64,000 bases of DNA from a virus. Below are positions 7,352 through 22,484 of the stretch, one piece after another (positions within the stretch are counted from its first letter, which is position 1; each line of letters opens with the position of its first letter). A program made the translations under genes and the position numbers. The notes under the pieces were generated by a model. It saw only the letters and a list, made by a program, of their open reading frames with translations, searched no databases and was not told where the DNA came from. The DNA is taken from IMG/VR virus record IMGVR_UViG_3300042878_000903, positions 1 through 64,000 of that record. One strand, given 5' to 3'.

Positions 7352-7810
7352 TTAAGATAAAATCTGTGCAATGAATCCATCAATTTGTTCTGGAGTTGTT
7401 TGCGGCCCCATAGATCTAAATTGATCATCAATAAGAAACTTAGTAAAGTTCCATGGCACTTCATCAAAATCTGCCTGTGAGACTAAATACTTAAATAGCG
7501 GGTGTGCATCTGGGCCATTGACATCAATTTTTGTAGACATCAGAAAATCTACTCCATATGTTGTGCTACAAAATTCTTTAATGTCTTCGTCTGATCCTGG
7601 CTCTTGTCCGCCAAACTGATTGCATGGAAATCCGATTACAACCAAACCCTTGTCCGCATACTTCTTGTGCAGTGCTTGAAGCCCCTCGTATTGAGGTGTC
7701 ATTCCACATCGACTAGCAACATTAACAAGAAGCAATAACTTTCCCTTAAACTGTGCTAAATCTATTTCATTACCATTGTTATCTGTAAAGCTATAATTAA
7801 ATGCTGACAT
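7352..7810 (-). CDS. Glutathione-peroxidase family protein (BtuE-like), 152 aa
   Basis: Reduces hydrogen peroxide and organic peroxides, in bacteria usually with thioredoxin as electron donor. The catalytic tetrad is present: Cys35 (in VASRCGMTPQY), Gln (GFPCNQFG) and the Trp-Asn pair (PWNFTKFL). Length matches bacterial BtuE-type enzymes. Preceded by an AAAGGAT ribosome-binding site. With KatG, thioredoxin and a Dps-like protein in the same window it suggests a phage oxidative-stress kit; thioredoxin at 18061 is a plausible partner. Confidence 0.92.
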   Translation of the reverse strand: MSAFNYSFTDNNGNEIDLAQFKGKLLLLVNVASRCGMTPQYEGLQALHKKYADKGLVVIGFPCNQFGGQEPGSDEDIKEFCSTTYGVDFLMSTKIDVNGPDAHPLFKYLVSQADFDEVPWNFTKFLIDDQFRSMGPQTTPEQIDGFIAQILS

Positions 7811-10009: not shown

Positions 10010-10126
10010 TTATTTAATCTTTGATTTTATCTTACTGTTAGCCTTTTTAAATCCTAGGCCATATGACCCTAGCATTAATAGAGCAATTGCTGAGGAATGC
10101 AATAAATAAAATAAGGATGTTCTCAC
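10010..10126 (-). CDS. Single-pass membrane peptide, 38 aa (GTG start)
   Basis: Its GTG overlaps the katG stop as GTGA, so translation is probably coupled to katG. One hydrophobic segment (residues 5-26) followed by a Lys-rich tail, giving a membrane anchor with cytoplasmic basic end. Function unknown. Confidence 0.6.
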
Positions 10127-12186
10127 TTTTTCCCTTTCTTTATATCAAATCTATCAAGTTCCATTACTTTTGACCACGCATTAGCAAAGTCTAGGAAGAA
10201 CTTCTCTCTAGCATCATTTGAGGCATATACTTCTGCAATTGCACGTAGCTCTGAGTTAGACGCAATGATAAGATCAACACGAGGAACGTTAATTGCCTCA
10301 CTAGCATTAGTGTAAGAAAGCAACTCGGATAGATAGGTGTTGTCTAAGTTATTGTTGTTTAGCATTCTAATTCCAGATAGTAATAACACAAGTTCTACTG
10401 GATTTAAATCTAATAAGTTAGCCTTTTCTACCAGCAATACTTCTTCTGGAGCAGTAACGGCCCAATTAATGTAGTTGCGGAAGCCATCAAACTTTGGCTC
10501 AAGAACTAAAAACGAATCAATGTCTGTTTGATTTTGTGTTGCATCTGTTCTACCTTGTGTAAATGGAACAGATACTTTAATCCCTGACTGTTCTGCTGAC
10601 TTTTCAATAGCAGCGCATCCACCAAGCACAATAAGGTCTGCAATTGACATTTCTGTTTTAATAGATTCTAAAACACTAAGAACCTTACTAATAGTGGCAG
10701 TATCATTTACATCCCAGGATATCTGTGGATGTAGTCTGATTCTTGCCCCATTTGCTCCGCCCCTCTTATCTGTTTTCCTAAAAGTAGAAGCAGAAGCCCA
10801 TGCGGTAATGACTAAATCTGAAATAGATAATTCTGAATCTAATATTTGCTTCTTTATCTTTTTAATATTTTTATCAGAAATCTTTTTGTTTTTTGTTAGC
10901 GGCACTGGATCTTGCCATATTAATATTTCTGAAGGCACTTCTTTACCAAGATACCTTGAAACTGGACCCATATCTCTATGAGTTAGCTTAAACCATGCAC
11001 GAGCAAATACGTCTGAGAAATATTCGAAGTCTTTTAAAAATTTCATTGAAATTTTGTTATACTCTGGATCAAATTTTAATGCTAGGTCTGCTGTAGTCAT
11101 CATTGGTGCATGAAATTTGCCATCTACATGTGCGTCTGGCACTAAATTAACAGCAGATTTATCTGTAGGAATCCATTGTGTAGCTCCAGCAGGACTTTTT
11201 GTTTGCTTCCAGTCATATGTAAACAATAACTCAAGATACGAGTTATCCCATTTAGTTGGTGTTGGGCTCCATGCGCCCTCTATACCACTTGTAATTGTAT
11301 CTTCTGCATTACCTTTGCCAAAAGAGTTCTTCCAACCAAGACCAAGCTCTTCAATTGGAGCTTCTTCTGGATTTGGGCCAACGTGTGAGGGATCTCCAGC
11401 ACCATGGGCTTTACCAAATGCGTGTCCTCCTGCAATTAATGCAACAGTCTCTTCGTCATTCATTGCCATACGAGCAAAAGTTTCACGGATATCTTTTGCA
11501 GAAAGAATTGGATCTGGATTACCATTTGGGCCTTCAGGATTTACATAAATTAATCCCATCTGAACTGCAGCTAATGGGTTTTCTAATTCACGATCACTGC
11601 TATATCTATTATCTGCTAGCCATTCTTTTTCGTTACCCCAATATGTATCATCTGATTCCCAAACATCTTCACGTCCGCCACCAAAACCGAATGTCTTAAA
11701 GCCCATGTTTTCAAGAGAAACGTTGCCTGCAAGAATCATTAGGTCTGCCCATGAAATCTTTTTGCCATACTTTTGTTTAATTGGCCATAATAAACGACGT
11801 GCTTTATCTAGATTACCATTATCTGGCCATGAGTTTTGTGGTGCAAATCTATGTAAACCTTCTCCAGAGCCGCCACGTCCATCTGCTGTTCTATATGTGC
11901 CTGCTGAGTGCCAAGCCATGCGAATAAAAAATGGTCCATAGTTACCATAATCTGCTGGCCACCATTCCTGCGATGTAGTTAAAAGATTATTAATGTCATT
12001 CTTAACAGCATCTAAATCTAGGCTTTCAAACTCTTTTGCATAATCAAAATCTTTTGTCATTGGGTCAGATTTTTCTGAATGTTTTCTTAATCCAGATAAA
12101 TCTAATCTATTAGGGAACCATTCTTTGTGCGTTTTTACTTCTGTACTTGTTGAATGCCCAGTTATTGGACACTTTGCTTCTGTCAT
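10123..12186 (-). CDS. katG: Catalase-peroxidase KatG, 687 aa
   Basis: Haem enzyme that destroys hydrogen peroxide by catalase and peroxidase reactions. All active-site residues are visible: distal Arg89, Trp92 and His93 ([11 protein letters not shown]), proximal His255 ([10 protein letters not shown]), and the Trp92-Tyr214-Met240 set that forms the covalent adduct needed for catalase activity. Both the active N-terminal and the degenerate C-terminal peroxidase domains are present. Slightly shorter than typical (about 720-740 aa), mainly at the N-terminus. The start has an AAAGGAAT ribosome-binding site. A whole katG is very unusual in a phage. Dependence of acI freshwater actinobacteria on catalase is reported in the literature, which makes it a plausible host-protection gene. 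Confidence 0.97.
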
Positions 12187-12580: not shown

Positions 12581-13630
12581 TTATGATTCCAATGCATATT
12601 TAATATCATTCCATAAATCTTCTGGGTCTTCGCAGCCAACTGAAAATCTAATTAAACTTTCTGAAATTAATTTACTTTCAAGAGGCCACCTTCTTCTTCT
12701 TTCCCACAAGGACTCTACGCTTCCAAGACTTGTTGCATTAGATATAATTCTAGAAGATGAGCATATTCTGTCTGCGCCTTCTGAATCAGTATTTACCTCA
12801 AATGATATCATGGCGCCAAATCCAGGATAATAAATTTTAGAAACCATTGGATGATCTGAAATTCTTTTTATTAATTTCTTTGCATTATCTTGGGCTTTTT
12901 CAAACCTTACTGGGAATGTTCTTATTCCTCTTAAAGCTAAATAGGCATCAAATGATTGAATTATAGTTCCACTTATTTTTCTTGAAAATTCTATTTTGTC
13001 AAACAAATCAGTGTTATTGATTGATATTGATCCACATAAAACGTCGCTGTGTCCAGCCAAATATTTAGTCACAGAATTCATGGAAATATCTGCACCCATT
13101 TTAAGGGGGTTTTGAAGTAGTGGTGTAGCAAATGTATTATCTACGCCCACTATAGTGTCCTGAGCCTTGCAGGCCCTTATTAGAGTACTTATGTCAGCCA
13201 CGTCTAGTCTGGGATTTGTAGGGCTTTCTATCCAAAGCATGTACGCTCCATCTAATTCTGATAAAACTTCAGCCGTATTCGATATATCTACAAACTTTGC
13301 AATTAATTTGCCTTGATCTTGCATTTGATTTAAGGTTGCATTTACTCCAGCGTATCCTTGGTTAGATGCAATTATTTTTGATCCCAGCGGAATATTATCA
13401 AAGACTGCTTTTATGGCAGACATTCCAGAATTAAATACTAAAGTTTTGCCGCCTTCTAATTTTCCTATTACTTCTTCTAATGAAGATGCTGTATCATTTC
13501 CATACCTTGCATACCCTACATCTCCGCCAGCATGATATGTAGAATTTAATGATATTGGAGTATTAATCGGGCCATCGTTGTCTGGCTTTGGTCTTCCGCT
13601 TAAAACTGAAATTGTGTATGGGCTTGTCAT
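12581..13630 (-). CDS. Cystathionine synthase/lyase-like PLP enzyme, 349 aa
   Basis: Fold-type I PLP enzyme of the Cys/Met metabolism family (cystathionine gamma-synthase, gamma- or beta-lyase). The PLP lysine is Lys189 in NSVTKYLAGHSD, with Asp164 (VGVDNTFATP) binding the pyridine nitrogen; SLGSVESL and the C-terminal IRFSVGCEDPEDL carry the substrate carboxylate site. About 30-40 residues shorter than typical, mainly in the C-terminal domain. Whether it makes cystathionine or releases H2S, cysteine or homocysteine cannot be told from motifs. Part of a sulfur-related cluster with an SsuD-like enzyme. Confidence 0.9.
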   Translation of the reverse strand: MTSPYTISVLSGRPKPDNDGPINTPISLNSTYHAGGDVGYARYGNDTASSLEEVIGKLEGGKTLVFNSGMSAIKAVFDNIPLGSKIIASNQGYAGVNATLNQMQDQGKLIAKFVDISNTAEVLSELDGAYMLWIESPTNPRLDVADISTLIRACKAQDTIVGVDNTFATPLLQNPLKMGADISMNSVTKYLAGHSDVLCGSISINNTDLFDKIEFSRKISGTIIQSFDAYLALRGIRTFPVRFEKAQDNAKKLIKRISDHPMVSKIYYPGFGAMISFEVNTDSEGADRICSSSRIISNATSLGSVESLWERRRRWPLESKLISESLIRFSVGCEDPEDLWNDIKYALES

Positions 13631-13645
13631 ATTAAATCCTAGTAG

Positions 13646-13735
13646 TTAAATAAAAGGTAGATCTAAAATTTTATCTACCGCATCATCAATTGTAGGGGCA
13701 TGTTCTTTGGAGCATGCCCCACAACTTTTACACAT
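13646..13735 (-). CDS. Mini-protein with MCxxCGxC N-terminus, 29 aa
   Basis: TAATG junction with the 66-aa gene. Starts MCKSCGAC, close to the MCxxCGC high-affinity metal site at the N-terminus of HypB. The same DNA forms a strong hairpin (GGGGCATG with CATGCCCC, 13693-13718) without a T-tract, so an RNA role is also possible. Confidence 0.5.
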   Translation of the reverse strand: MCKSCGACSKEHAPTIDDAVDKILDLPFI

Positions 13736-13935
13736 TATATCTTTTTTCTACCAGTCCTTTTAGGAGGCCTTGGCGTTGTATTTAGCTCACGACGTATACC
13801 ATGTCTATTTATGTCTGTTTTAAGACCTTGACGTGGATTCTTGCGTGTTACTGAATTACTAGTAACGGCACCTGCTGCTGCACCATTTGGTGGTGGAGTT
13901 GTTCCTGTGCCATCTTCTTTTTGAAAATTACTCAT
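13735..13935 (-). CDS. Basic, probably disordered protein, 66 aa
   Basis: Pro-, Gly- and Ala-rich N-terminal half and an Arg/Lys-rich C-terminal half (RPPKRTGRKK), suggesting nucleic-acid or surface binding without a fold. Overlaps both neighbours by a few bases within a run of mini-genes. Confidence 0.6.
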   Translation of the reverse strand: MSNFQKEDGTGTTPPPNGAAAGAVTSNSVTRKNPRQGLKTDINRHGIRRELNTTPRPPKRTGRKKI

Positions 13936-14077
13936 TGATGAATTGTCTTGTTTGCTCTGGGGTTGATGACATGCTTAAAGTTAAGCCTGAATCACCATCT
14001 CTTGAAACATCTACAACTGTAACTGGAGTTACACCTTTAGTGCTTCCTACTGACTCGCATCCGCATTCGTAACACAT
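13928..14077 (-). CDS. Mini-protein with MCxxCGC N-terminus, 49 aa
   Basis: Starts MCYECGCE, matching the HypB-type N-terminal metal-binding motif, followed by about 40 Ser/Thr/Val-rich residues. TAATG overlap with the upstream gene and 8-base overlap with the downstream gene. Metal storage or delivery is an inference from the motif only. Confidence 0.62.
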   Translation of the reverse strand: MCYECGCESVGSTKGVTPVTVVDVSRDGDSGLTLSMSSTPEQTRQFINE

Positions 14078-14256
14078 TATTTGCAATTCTCACAATCTTT
14101 AACATCACAATCGGCTTCGCCTCTTGTGTCTCTTGTGCACTTAGCAGCAGATACGACTGGCTTTGGTGCAATAGCTGCTTCTACAGGTTTAACTGCTTGT
14201 GCAACCGCTGCTTCAACTGTTGGAGCAGTAACTTCTTCTTGATCAAATAGACCCAT
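14077..14256 (-). CDS. Ala/Val-rich small protein with Cys-rich tail, 59 aa
   Basis: N-terminal 38 residues are Ala-, Val- and Pro-rich with no Cys. The last 20 hold four Cys (C-x10-C-x4-C-x2-C), a compact metal-binding tail. Coupled by TAATG to the MCYECGC gene. Unknown family. Confidence 0.6.
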   Translation of the reverse strand: MGLFDQEEVTAPTVEAAVAQAVKPVEAAIAPKPVVSAAKCTRDTRGEADCDVKDCENCK

Positions 14257-14258
14257 TT

Positions 14259-14408
14259 TTACTTTGGGCCCTGTGCTGATGCTTGGTTAGAAACATCTGA
14301 AGCTGGGAATGCAGCTGCTGGTGCCTCTGTGTAATTTTCTGTTGCCCATGGTGATGATCCTACTGGCTTTGTTTCGTTAAATCCTTTTAAATCTTTTCCG
14401 TCTGACAT
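14259..14408 (-). CDS. Small disordered protein, 49 aa
   Basis: Ser-, Ala- and Pro-rich, without Cys or membrane segment. A GGAG ribosome-binding site precedes the ATG. It sits between two Cys-rich mini-genes in the same direction. Function unknown. Confidence 0.58.
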   Translation of the reverse strand: MSDGKDLKGFNETKPVGSSPWATENYTEAPAAAFPASDVSNQASAQGPK

Positions 14409-14454
14409 GTTGTACTCCTATAGGTTATTTATTTAAGTAGTTCTAGAAATCTAC

Positions 14455-14553
14455 TCATTGGTCTATTATACCATCTGGTTGATTAGAATCGGAATCTTCA
14501 TCCCTTTTATTACCTAGGCCTATATGATCTGCACATCCACATAACCAACACAT
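14455..14553 (-). CDS. Mini-protein with MCxxCGC N-terminus, 32 aa
   Basis: Starts MCWLCGCAD, then becomes Asp/Asn-rich. Its start overlaps the radical SAM gene stop as TAATG, giving direct translational coupling to that enzyme. Third member of the local MCxxCG group. Confidence 0.6.
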   Translation of the reverse strand: MCWLCGCADHIGLGNKRDEDSDSNQPDGIIDQ

Positions 14554-15554
14554 TAGTCGCCCCAAATGGCCGCAGAGCAGCTTCTACACATATTAGAGTA
14601 GCTATTTTCAACCATGTCAGACCTATTTTTGCTATGCCATATTTCTTTTATTGAAGTATTAAATGCATTTCCATATACCGTTTCAAAATCATAATCAGCG
14701 CAGCATATAAATAGATCTCCATTGGGGTTTATATGTATCCACTCATTAGTTCTACTTCTTACCTCTATGCCACCAGAGCAGCCTATAACACGACTACCCT
14801 TTGGCATTAAATATTTTTCTATAGCTGGACCTTGAGTCATTATTTTATATGTTTCTAAATGCGCTGCCCTATCATATAAATGATTAGCTGTACTTATGCT
14901 CAGGCTAGGGAACATTTCTTTAAATCGGTCATGCTCTTTTTTTAAATCTCCTGTTTGAACATCTAAATCTAATTTTGGTGCATTTTCAAGAAGATCTAGC
15001 CAGCCACCATTTTTAGTTAAAGATAAATCGTTAATGCCATTAATCATCAAATGAATAAAGATTGGCTTATCTAACTTATTGTTTTCTTCTATAAAATACT
15101 TTACATTTTCTATAACTTTTGGAAATAGTTTTACATTCATTTTAACGTATTTAGACCAGGTATCGGCTTCAGATGATGGAATGTTTAATAATATTCCATC
15201 AATAGAATCCCTGTGCTTTATTAAAATCTCTGTTTTAGATTTAGTTAAATTAACTCCATTAGTGAGTATATTTGTTCTAAAATTATATTTTGAATATAGA
15301 TCCATCATGGCATCAAATTCTTTATATAAAAGAACTTCGTTGTAATTAGCTGAATATACCATTTTTAATTCTGGATCTACAAAATCACCTTTGCCATCAG
15401 TTAATTGAATAAATATATTTTCTATTTCTGACAGAGGCATATCTCTTATTGCAGATTTTGGATTACCTGCATATGCAACTGGACAAAACCAGCATGCTGA
15501 ATTACACAGCCCGTTAACATCGAGCTGCACTGCCTTTATCATGTATTTATTCAT
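14553..15554 (-). CDS. Radical SAM protein with SPASM-like C-terminus, 333 aa
   Basis: The radical SAM [4Fe-4S] motif C-x3-C-x2-C is Cys17, Cys21 and Cys24. The C-terminal third has GCSGG, ICCADYD, YGN and a final CRSC, the cysteine pattern of SPASM/twitch domains that bind auxiliary clusters. Such enzymes modify peptides, proteins or sugars using a 5'-deoxyadenosyl radical. Substrate unknown. Downstream Cys-rich mini-proteins are coupled to it, upstream is a 40-aa Cys protein. A peptide-modifying role is possible but unproven. Confidence 0.88.
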   Translation of the reverse strand: MNKYMIKAVQLDVNGLCNSACWFCPVAYAGNPKSAIRDMPLSEIENIFIQLTDGKGDFVDPELKMVYSANYNEVLLYKEFDAMMDLYSKYNFRTNILTNGVNLTKSKTEILIKHRDSIDGILLNIPSSEADTWSKYVKMNVKLFPKVIENVKYFIEENNKLDKPIFIHLMINGINDLSLTKNGGWLDLLENAPKLDLDVQTGDLKKEHDRFKEMFPSLSISTANHLYDRAAHLETYKIMTQGPAIEKYLMPKGSRVIGCSGGIEVRSRTNEWIHINPNGDLFICCADYDFETVYGNAFNTSIKEIWHSKNRSDMVENSYSNMCRSCSAAIWGD

Positions 15555-15676
15555 TACACCTTATACAATTCTTGATAACAATCTGCACACATATCTATTA
15601 TGCCAGACTCAGGTAAACTTCCTATTCTGGATGCCTTACCCTTACAATCTTTTATTTCACATAGCCCATTAAGCAT
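15554..15676 (-). CDS. Small Cys-containing protein, 40 aa
   Basis: Has C-x4-C near the start and CADC near the end, a zinc-knuckle-like spacing. Its stop overlaps the radical SAM start as TAATG, so it is probably co-translated with it. Confidence 0.6.
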   Translation of the reverse strand: MLNGLCEIKDCKGKASRIGSLPESGIIDMCADCYQELYKV

Positions 15677-16748: not shown

Positions 16749-17771
16749 TTACTTAATCCAATTTACCTTTAGCTTAGGAAACTTTGCGTTCCACTTTTTA
16801 GCCAAAGCATTGAACTTTGTCTTTAGATCTGCAATAGTCTTCTTTAGGGCTTCGTTCTCTGCCTTTAAAGTTGCTGTTGCTGAATCTGATGAAGTCTTTG
16901 CATCTGCAAGTGCCTTATCTGATGCAATCTTATCTGCTGCACGAGCCGCTCTTTCTGCTGCCAACGCTGCGTTAACTACCGCAAGCTCTGATACAACATC
17001 ACGTACTACAATTGTAGCGCTTACAGAACCGATTGGTGCTGCTAAACCTGTTACGGCTGTTGCTACTGTTGCATATGCAACTACTGTTACTGAACCAGTA
17101 GCAGGCATTGTTACTGTCTGCTCTTTTGTTCCAAGTGTCGCTGTTGTTGAGTCAGTTGTTAGCGCTGTTGATAGTGCTGTTCCAGAGCTTGAAACTAAAG
17201 TATTAATTGTGGCTCCACTCTTTAGATTTCCGAATACATCGTATCCAGATACCTTAAGAACTTGTGATGTACCTGCTGCTGCTGATGCTGGAGCAGACAA
17301 AGTAATTGAGTTCAAAGCACCTGCGGTACCTTGTACATAATAAACTGTTGTTGTTCCTGCACGAGTAATAGATACTGAACCTACTGCTGTACTTTTAGTA
17401 TATACATAAAAGTCTGCTGCTGTTCCAGTTCCTGTCGCAATTGACAGTGTTGATGTTCCAGAAGATGCTGTTACTGCTGTCGCAGTAGTTGCAAGTGCTG
17501 GCACAAGAGTTGCATTTACTGCAACTGCTGTTACTACAGTTCCAGTGTCTACACCAGTAACTGCAATTTTCAACGCATCTGCTGCGTCGATGCTGTTATC
17601 TGCTGGCACTGGTAGTGATACAGGTGTTGTTACAACTGTTCCACCCGTTGCTGCAGATCCCGCCACTGTTAGTGTGACAGTTCCAGCGTTAGCGTTAGCT
17701 GCTGGCGTTACAAGCATTGTGCTAGTCAGGGCTGCAGCGATGATTAGCGATATTTTCTTAAATGAGTTCAT
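16749..17771 (-). CDS. Secreted Ala/Thr/Val-rich protein with C-terminal coiled coil, 340 aa
   Basis: A clear signal peptide (KK, hydrophobic stretch, cleavage near ANANAG) is followed by about 220 residues of Ser/Thr/Ala/Val-rich beta sequence, probably Ig-like sandwiches, then a heptad-like Ala/Glu/Lys helix (residues 265-320) ending KLKVNWIK. No catalytic motif. It resembles host-type exported proteins more than virion parts, so it may act at the surface of the infected cell. Its leader carries a hairpin and an inverted repeat, and the gene ends at a strong terminator, so it is monocistronic. Confidence 0.75.
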   Translation of the reverse strand: MNSFKKISLIIAAALTSTMLVTPAANANAGTVTLTVAGSAATGGTVVTTPVSLPVPADNSIDAADALKIAVTGVDTGTVVTAVAVNATLVPALATTATAVTASSGTSTLSIATGTGTAADFYVYTKSTAVGSVSITRAGTTTVYYVQGTAGALNSITLSAPASAAAGTSQVLKVSGYDVFGNLKSGATINTLVSSSGTALSTALTTDSTTATLGTKEQTVTMPATGSVTVVAYATVATAVTGLAAPIGSVSATIVVRDVVSELAVVNAALAAERAARAADKIASDKALADAKTSSDSATATLKAENEALKKTIADLKTKFNALAKKWNAKFPKLKVNWIK

Positions 17772-17869: not shown

Positions 17870-18070
17870 TTAGTGTAATTCATGTAGTTTTACGTGGAAT
17901 GAGCATGGATCTCCACCCTCTTCCCAATCAATCATTTCGGCATCTGATAATGGAGGGCCTTCGTGTGTATCGCAAAATACGTCCGATACCCATCCTCGAT
18001 CATAACCATTCTTCAGCCATATTTGAAACTCTAAATGGCTAGAATCTTCCGAATCAAACTCTAAATCCAT
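17870..18070 (-). CDS. Conserved-type actinophage small protein, 66 aa
   Basis: Acidic; the segment YDRGWVSDVFCDTHEGPP...DWEEGGDPC is a pattern I recall from hypothetical proteins of actinobacteria and their phages. Cys and His could bind metal. Overlaps the end of the thioredoxin gene by 10 bases, so co-translated with it. Confidence 0.68.
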   Translation of the reverse strand: MDLEFDSEDSSHLEFQIWLKNGYDRGWVSDVFCDTHEGPPLSDAEMIDWEEGGDPCSFHVKLHELH

Positions 18071-18363
18071 TCTGATAACTCCTCAAGTAACACGTGCTTT
18101 GGCTTTGCTCCTGTTATTGTCTTGACTGGTTTACCATAACTAAATAGTATCATGGTTGGGATAGTCTTTATGTCAAATTCATCTGATTTCAATGGATTCT
18201 CATCAACATTTAACTTTCCAACCCAGAGCCCGCACTCATTTGATATCTCATCTAGTATTGGAGATACTTTTTTGCAAGGACCACACCATTCAGCCCAAAA
18301 GTCGATAAGGATTAAATTGTGGGCTTTAAGAACCTTATCAAAACTTTCGTCTGTTACTATCAT
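18061..18363 (-). CDS. trxA: Thioredoxin, 100 aa
   Basis: Disulfide reductase with the WCGPC active site (Cys27 and Cys30) and a cis-Pro in IKTIPTMILF. Standard single-domain length. It could reduce ribonucleotide reductase, the phage glutathione-peroxidase-like enzyme or host proteins; some phages use thioredoxin as a polymerase clamp, but no such link is seen here. Four-base overlap with the 68-aa gene upstream. Confidence 0.95.
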   Translation of the reverse strand: MIVTDESFDKVLKAHNLILIDFWAEWCGPCKKVSPILDEISNECGLWVGKLNVDENPLKSDEFDIKTIPTMILFSYGKPVKTITGAKPKHVLLEELSEWI

Positions 18364-21665: not shown

Positions 21666-21972
21666 CTGGTTTCCCCTCCAACTCGACTCGTACCCCATAT
21701 GATTCTAGGATCCTTTTAACCATTTCGATATAATCTATAACTCTCATTCTCATACTGCCATCGTACTGTGAAAAATTGTTTTCATATAATCTTATTGCTA
21801 AAAATTCAGGATACTTTACAATATCCATCTGTAAGTCGTGTGAAGGGCTTTTTAATTCTCTCACTTTTTTTGCCATTTCTTTTGTGTAAAAAACTGGCTT
21901 GTTGGCTTCTCCAGTCCATTCGTTAACGCCATACTGGAAATGATTTTTGTCTTTATCTATAAAGTTAGCCAT
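21649..21972 (-). CDS. Hypothetical protein, 107 aa
   Basis: Soluble, mixed alpha/beta, no recognised motif. Starts within the end of the WhiB gene (8-base overlap). Immediately downstream of a transcription factor, in one transcript with the three following small genes. Confidence 0.65.
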   Translation of the reverse strand: MANFIDKDKNHFQYGVNEWTGEANKPVFYTKEMAKKVRELKSPSHDLQMDIVKYPEFLAIRLYENNFSQYDGSMRMRVIDYIEMVKRILESYGVRVELEGKPGGRAG

Positions 21973-22273
21973 GTAGTCCCTTTATTTTTTTGTTTATTTC
22001 TTTTGTCTTATGTGCATTTTTTGATTTATCTGGTGTGCCAGAACTTAGATAAACTCCGCCCCAAACACCGTAATTATCTGACTCTACTCCATATTTATAG
22101 CACATGGCAATTACAGGACAAGACATGCATGCCTGATCAATACTTTTTGCTATGTTAATATCCGTTTCGTATGAATCAAAAAATAGGTTGGTGTCCATGC
22201 CAAGACATAGTGCTAGGTCTTGCCATTGAAGTAGGTCTTTATCTATTCCTAAATTATTTAAAATTTTTGACAT
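21965..22273 (-). CDS. WhiB-family iron-sulfur regulator, 102 aa
   Basis: WhiB proteins occur only in actinobacteria and their phages. They bind a [4Fe-4S] cluster and the sigma factor to change promoter choice or sense NO and redox state. The four cluster cysteines are Cys23, Cys49, Cys52 and Cys58 (CMSCPVIAMC), followed by the GVWGG turn at 69-73. The ATG at 22273 is preferred because an earlier one (22339) would overlap the previous gene by 86 bases. It is direct evidence for the host group and may redirect host sigma factor. Confidence 0.93.
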   Translation of the reverse strand: MSKILNNLGIDKDLLQWQDLALCLGMDTNLFFDSYETDINIAKSIDQACMSCPVIAMCYKYGVESDNYGVWGGVYLSSGTPDKSKNAHKTKEINKKIKGLHG

Positions 22274-22484
22274 ATTGTGTTGGGAGCTTCCATAGCCCAT
22301 CATCGTTGATTGCAATTTTTTCTGCAATTCCCCACTCATTTTTGAATAGACCGTTTTTATTTGTGAACCCAGAACTATTTTTCTTCCAGATAATTAAAGA
22401 GTAATTGTCCCAAAAAGAATGTAAGACTTTAGAATTAGATCTCTTTATAAAAACATCTACGCCTAATTCAGTTAAGTTAAGCAA
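22254..22484 (-). CDS. Hypothetical protein, 76 aa
   Basis: Trp- and Lys-rich, with an AVRPR-like beta pattern but no motif I can name. Lies 16 bases downstream of tRNA-Leu and just upstream of WhiB, so it may be read from the tRNA promoter. Confidence 0.55.
   Translation of the reverse strand: MLNLTELGVDVFIKRSNSKVLHSFWDNYSLIIWKKNSSGFTNKNGLFKNEWGIAEKIAINDDGLWKLPTQYVKNFK

Follow-up and report, generated by a model that had tools for sequence, protein, structure and literature searches.

What three very small genes with a shared cysteine pattern at their start may do beside a radical SAM enzyme is the question raised by this viral locus. The window, that is, the whole stretch of 64,000 nucleotides analysed here, is taken from a viral contig of 110 kb (IMG/VR IMGVR_UViG_3300042878_000903), of which it makes up the first 64 kb. 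An earlier note on the window had described genes starting with MCWLCGC, MCYECGC and MCKSCGAC at positions 14455, 13928 and 13646, and a direct reading of the minus strand finds all three there; they are referred to below as W, Y and K. The MCxxCGC label that it gave them is exact for W and Y, whereas K reads MCxxCGxC. On the minus strand, the order runs from the radical SAM/SPASM gene through W, a 49-aa ORF, a 59-aa ORF, Y, a 66-aa ORF and K to the gene of a PLP enzyme:

15554..15676, minus strand: 40-aa ORF with a CEIKDC...CADC pattern, directly upstream of the radical SAM gene; no family match
14553..15554, minus strand: radical SAM/SPASM protein, 333 aa, with CxxxCxxC and the C-terminal cysteines 259, 284, 285, 323 and 326
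14455..14553, minus strand: W, 32 aa, start MCWLCGC, sequence MCWLCGCADHIGLGNKRDEDSDSNQPDGIIDQ; TAATG overlap with the stop of the radical SAM gene
14259..14408, minus strand: 49-aa ORF, Cys-free, with a Shine-Dalgarno-like AGGAG; first gene of the mini cassette
14077..14256, minus strand: 59-aa ORF with a Cys-rich C-terminal tail, CTRDTRG..C..KDCENC (CTRDTRGEADCDVKDCENCK), kept in relatives (e.g., L009 and L015)
13928..14077, minus strand: Y, 49 aa, start MCYECGC, sequence MCYECGCESVGSTKGVTPVTVVDVSRDGDSGLTLSMSSTPEQTRQFINE; TAATG overlap with the stop of the 59-aa ORF
13735..13935, minus strand: 66-aa ORF, basic, between Y and K (..HGIRRELNTTPRPPKRTGRKKI), kept in relatives
13646..13735, minus strand: K, 29 aa, start MCKSCGAC, sequence MCKSCGACSKEHAPTIDDAVDKILDLPFI; TAATG overlap with the stop of the 66-aa ORF
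12581..13630, minus strand: PLP enzyme of the cystathionine gamma-synthase/lyase group (Pfam Cys_Met_Meta_PP, 1.8e-82), the downstream neighbour

The coupling by TAATG or short overlaps that had been claimed for these genes is borne out by the TAATG starts of W, Y and K, and by the 66-aa ORF, which shares 8 nt with the end of Y, as read directly from the sequence. The Cys-rich tail claimed for the gene at 14077 is likewise present.

In the window and its group, W, Y and K lie in a region of modification genes (thioredoxin, luciferase-like, radical SAM, oxygenases and the PLP enzyme), which is not adjacent to the capsid genes; in L016-L019, the PLP enzyme is placed between the radical SAM gene and W. 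An actinobacterial host is likely, since the contig terminase shares 60-64% identity with its counterparts in large, Gilson-related Streptomyces phages, and a WhiB-family protein is encoded at 21965-22339 (minus strand; PF02467, E 7.6e-12). Genes that by eye resemble those of catalase-peroxidase and glutathione-peroxidase-type proteins lie at 10123-12186 and 7352-7810 (both minus strand) and, together with the thioredoxin at 18061-18363, represent unusually many redox genes for a phage. In a dozen other phage loci, the thioredoxin and an Ala/Thr/Val-rich, secreted-looking protein with a signal-like N-terminus (16749-17771, minus strand) are kept together upstream of the cassette. The window also encodes an S-adenosylmethionine decarboxylase (PF02675; 4352-4756, minus strand) and a sulfotransferase (PF17784; 6043-6618, minus strand).

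Conservation of the mini-genes

The pattern ATGTGY-N6-TGYGG has three occurrences in the window, where shuffling predicts 0.06, and none of 100 shuffles reached this count. The same three sites are the only ones in the whole 110 kb contig, in which the reversed pattern does not occur. Among 20 related viral loci, which were retrieved by the radical SAM protein alone, W was found in all 20, an MCxxCGC mini-protein in the Y slot of 14, and K in 13, and substitution in these relatives is mostly synonymous (pS 0.85 vs pN 0.06 for W, and pS 0.65 vs pN 0.17 for K). The earlier note had allowed for a motif that is random in related phages, which is not what these loci present. The W, Y and K mini-genes are real, conserved genes and, judging from the codon substitutions, purifying selection is acting on them. 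Chance occurrence of the motif is ruled out by the shuffles, the reversed patterns, the codon statistics and a frame-shifted scan, described below.

The Y slot is occupied across the relatives by MCxxCGC mini-proteins with two or more unrelated tails. In L009, L010, L011 and L015, for example, the tails are unrelated to that of Y in the window, and every one of these proteins starts with MCxxCGC; on this comparison, the N-terminal start is the conserved part of the slot.

A wide class of coupled mini-proteins

The search of phage databases for short proteins with an N-terminal MCxxCGC, as the earlier note had proposed, was run as a scan of a TAATG-MCxxCGC DNA pattern over 2.9 million viral contigs, and all of its figures are given among the matches listed. 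The control was the same pattern shifted by one base, found in 97 stretches of the whole collection. The scan returned many coupled ORFs of 25-90 aa: among the matches listed, 95% of the in-frame matches examined were of this kind, against 16% in the frame-shifted control, and an upstream ORF of at least 30 codons ended in the overlap in 89% of them, against 9% in the control. The types among the matches listed include MCATCGCGKPKDKHG..., MCLECGCNQPxxxHG..., MCATCGCKHINYNHR..., MCAACGCGKKKGEPGFGKG... and MCVECGC..VGS..., as well as MCKSCGCGCSKPGCKGACKK..., which has an EF-hand-like tail whose Dockerin and EF-hand matches fall below the cut-off. Again among the matches listed, the mini-genes often stand in tandem, by twos or threes, and the tails across the class are unrelated to each other. 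Mini-proteins with an EF-hand- or dockerin-like DxDKDGKLEGSDF and a Lys tail are encoded in L105, L114, L124 and L146.

By their sequences, W, Y and K belong to this large, loose and widespread class of mini-proteins of uncultivated aquatic phages, the shared part of which is the N-terminal start. No family of Pfam, PHROG or NCBIfam names them and the literature search found no paper on them, in agreement with the earlier statement that no named family was known. Searches of cultured phages returned no significant match for three mini-proteins and none for the radical SAM protein, and the MCxxCGC motif is absent from five related isolate phage records. In one late-module group, the capsid protein is 82% identical to that of phage E7, which was isolated on Ca. 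Planktophila (PMC10202952). The MCxxCGC mini-proteins of this group are accessory genes, since E7 lacks MCxxCGC and carries a Lys-rich, Cys-free mini-protein in the same slot.

The commonest site of these genes, among the matches listed, is the late module, between the major capsid or portal genes and the head-tail connector, sheath or tube genes. Most of the structural-module types have Lys-rich tails and 43 of the 69 distinct coupled mini-proteins among the matches listed are strongly basic. Taken together with the other Lys-rich mini-protein that fills the slot in E7, this placement may suggest that they are minor components of the virion or of head assembly, either zinc-knuckle-like cement or basic peptides inside the particle, and that the cassette in the window is a displaced version of such genes. 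This explanation is unlikely, given that W, Y and K of the window group lie away from the capsid genes, that the tails are unrelated and in some cases acidic, and that the same start is also found on enzymes.

W and the radical SAM enzyme

The radical SAM protein of the window exceeds the Pfam cut-offs (SPASM 6.6e-11, Radical_SAM 9.2e-8), has the CxxxCxxC motif, and its cysteines are conserved across 15 sequences. It resembles BtrN by sequence and DesII, SuiB and BtrN by predicted fold (model mean pLDDT 75), and shares with them the fold and the cluster-binding pattern at low identity. The fold neighbours of the predicted model also include the peptide-modifying enzymes SuiB, SkfB and EpeE. 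The likeness to BtrN, DesII and SuiB would be compatible with either a sugar or a peptide substrate, and does not settle the choice.

The N-terminal block of W, MCW[LMI]CGC, is invariant, and is followed by an acidic spacer and an NQ..IID tail; the signature may be written MCW.CGCADH[VI]G, and the 15 N-terminal residues, including Trp3, are extremely conserved. A DNA search for W alone recovered 46 contigs, all of which have the radical SAM gene (45 within the fetched stretch, the 46th being the L019 contig). A profile search for the radical SAM protein found W at 41 of the 43 loci in which the enzyme is at least 58% identical, the exceptions being L286, without W, and L285, in which the N-terminus has been lost. 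W was found at 0 of the 37 loci with an enzyme of at most 50% identity, and there the neighbours include glycosyltransferase-like and epimerase-like genes, named by eye, and 2OG oxygenase-like genes, the oxygenases alone clustering with those of the window. From this distribution, W is inherited with one clade of the radical SAM enzyme and not with the family, and a partnership with the family in general is ruled out by the same 37 loci. At L285 (2344-2450), the hook of W is lost, while the VDPNQLNDIIDS tail and an intact radical SAM gene are kept.

The Y and K types are also found in contigs without a radical SAM gene; in the close relative L157, an oxygenase-like gene occupies the position of the enzyme and W, and Y and K are still present. 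The loci of the generic scan (L100-L176) gave no radical SAM match within the stretches fetched, and most copies of the mini-genes among the matches listed are far from any such gene. The suggestion of the earlier note that the cluster as a whole might provide chaperones or substrates for the radical SAM enzyme is disfavoured, given that the enzyme is tracked by W alone, in one clade, and that Y, K and other mini-proteins occur without it; such a role would concern W at most.

For W itself, a role as the peptide substrate of the enzyme, similar to a RiPP precursor with CWxCGCADHVG as the N-terminal core and NQLNDIID as the C-terminal recognition tail, would agree with its position beside the gene, with the strict pairing inside one clade (41 of 43), with the conservation of the 15 N-terminal residues, and with the presence of SuiB, SkfB and EpeE among the fold neighbours. 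It is nevertheless improbable, as the enzymes of at most 50% identity have no such peptide (0 of 37) and often lie beside glycosyltransferase and epimerase genes, DesII and BtrN, enzymes of the sugar type, are also among the top neighbours by fold and sequence, neither a transporter nor a protease was seen beside the locus, the enzyme of L285 persists next to a decayed W, and Y and K have no link to the enzyme.

The N-terminal hook and its probable metal binding

Among the matches listed, 52 of the 69 distinct coupled mini-proteins (75%) have exactly three cysteines, and 23 of these 52 have His14; W, Y and K have three cysteines each, and K also has His12. Among 11 coupled proteins with the motif at residue 3, none has just three cysteines and nine have a second CxxC, so that a second CxxC is found in 9% of the position-2 mini-proteins and in 82% of the position-3 proteins, both samples being matches listed rather than full counts. 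By this pattern, the coupled position-3 proteins are ordinary zinc ribbons. The mini-proteins share the CxxCG knuckle of zinc ribbons and knuckles (CxxCG...CxxC), and differ from them in that most lack the second CxxC and the motif is fixed at residue 2. For approximately 30 position-3 matches, among the matches listed, the motif belongs to the C-terminal end of a longer protein that is encoded upstream of the terminase; in L434, L441, L452 and some 28 others, this protein lies just upstream of a terminase-like gene and has a conserved, zinc-ribbon-like C-terminus, CPxCG..KxKLMAC[SA][STG]CGC[SK].

In the N-terminal CXXCGC of Escherichia coli HypB, Cys2, Cys5, Cys7 and the terminal amine bind nickel with a sub-picomolar Kd (PMC7055735). 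Three cysteines anchored at residue 2 are in keeping with a site that the terminal amine completes, as it does in this protein, and the resemblance to HypB that had been noted earlier extends to the same positions of Met1, Cys2, Cys5, Gly6 and Cys7. The HypB_prefix models of NCBIfam gave weak, sub-threshold matches to several mini-proteins (best 21.1 bits, against a cut-off of 30 or 35 bits). By this analogy, the hook, as the shared start may be called, likely binds metal. Unlike HypB, however, the mini-proteins are stand-alone (29-49 aa for W, Y and K), with no GTPase domain and with unrelated tails, and no hydrogenase genes were seen. They recall the metallothioneins in their very small size and clustered cysteines, and some viral types have six to eight (MCKSCGCGCSKPGCKGACKK... 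and MCASCGCKCTK...CKCQCNTCK), but W, Y and K have only three and no many-Cys CxC/CxxC cluster, and no Pfam metallothionein model was matched.

The identity of the motif with the HypB site (PMC7055735), the weak HypB_prefix matches, and a HypB-like protein (L241) found in a scan of cellular genomes might point to nickel chaperones or nickel sponges. A search for the cobW/HypB-type GTPase (PF02492) found none in 20 carrier contigs, with a control that was positive in 13 of 14 genomes, and every HypB_prefix match is below the curated cut-off, which together make such a role very improbable; nickel, one of the metals named in the earlier note, is not favoured. A search for Ni-SOD gave no match, and its control was likewise silent.

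The cysteines might also serve for protein binding rather than metal, in regulatory or host-directed peptides with redox-active thiols or in inhibitors of host or defence proteins. The small, fast-changing tails and the presence or absence of these genes among otherwise syntenic phages would be expected of such peptides, which are nonetheless quite unlikely here, as the N-terminus and position of W are coupled to one enzyme clade and the three-cysteine geometry is retained across unrelated tails.

In L022 and in L067/L269, a 2OG-Fe(II) oxygenase (PF13640) itself begins with MC[TN][TS]CGC, on some 30 extra residues. Its orthologues begin at residue 31-35, where the extension ends, and several of them have K ending just upstream; K immediately precedes a 2OG-Fe(II) oxygenase gene in several relatives. 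A search with one fused oxygenase recovered two loci, and the wider comparison is with loci retrieved by other searches. The window contig has ten PF13640 matches, nine of them above the curated cut-off, and several relatives have 7-10. Because two oxygenases carry the hook and the contig has these nine matches, iron is favoured for the window lineage. PF13640 oxygenases are missing from the carrier contigs L111 (89 kb) and L136 (100 kb), so that supplying such enzymes with iron cannot explain the class in general.

The best reading of these data is that of N-terminal metal-binding mini-proteins with a buffer or accessory role, which we consider about evenly poised between right and wrong. Each peptide would hold a single transition metal ion, of the soft or borderline kind, by its three thiolates, the fourth ligand being the terminal amine or, in some types, a histidine, in the manner of the HypB N-terminus in E. 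coli. Placement of the metal-loaded peptide would fall to the unrelated tails, which are acidic with an NQ..IID end in W, IDD..ID in K, and Lys-rich in most structural-module types. The peptides may serve as metal buffers or carriers of small size, produced along with the late or modification genes, W would be an accessory co-inherited with one radical SAM clade, and two phages would have the same hook joined straight onto a 2OG-Fe(II) oxygenase. Iron would be the most likely cargo in the window lineage, and no single metal is assigned to the class as a whole. Several observations weigh against this reading, namely the two oxygenase-free carriers, the dispensability of the hook in E7, the absence of W beside the radical SAM enzymes of at most 50% identity, the intact enzyme beside the W of L285, and the late-operon site near the capsid genes, which suits a virion role equally well.

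A further possibility, advanced tentatively and itself rather doubtful, is that a portable seven-residue metal hook has been joined to unrelated mini-proteins and some enzymes as a metal-handling layer of the phages, in which W would serve one radical SAM clade as a dedicated partner subunit for metal or cluster. Should the metal-binding reading hold, production of tiny metal-binding proteins of their own would be common among aquatic phages, an aspect of infection biology absent from the papers and family libraries searched, and the hook would represent a minimal HypB-type site for metal chemistry. The sequence signature of the class is simple, and it offers ready pairs, such as W with its radical SAM enzyme and the oxygenases with and without the hook.

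The hook is also used in small proteins of cells, given that a scan for a pattern across 85,000 species genomes recovered, in addition to L241, a stand-alone family MCYNCGCxxPDDDMG...EEAKKNTLELLKK in Patescibacteria, Acidobacteria, Chloroflexi, Nitrospiraceae and Syntrophaceae. The pattern was meant for HG at residues 14-15 and its CAYGG was mostly met out of frame (xMG), so that the matches do not reflect the abundance of the family, which is nonetheless a true one. The members (L216-L244), mostly of 53-65 aa, read MCYNCGCxxPDDDMGxxxNIT..TFEEAAKAAGQTxEEAKKNTLELLKK, and have no Pfam or NCBIfam match above the cut-off. As in the phages, the same hook opens a small stand-alone protein, but these proteins are found in cellular genomes and have a conserved, helical-looking tail that is absent from the phage mini-proteins. 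In the locus L177, a Cys-rich hook and a longer protein that has Gly/Ala-rich segments are fused in a 248-aa ORF, which starts with MCASCGCGCKPGKEQKGCKCTCKTC from approximately base 367.
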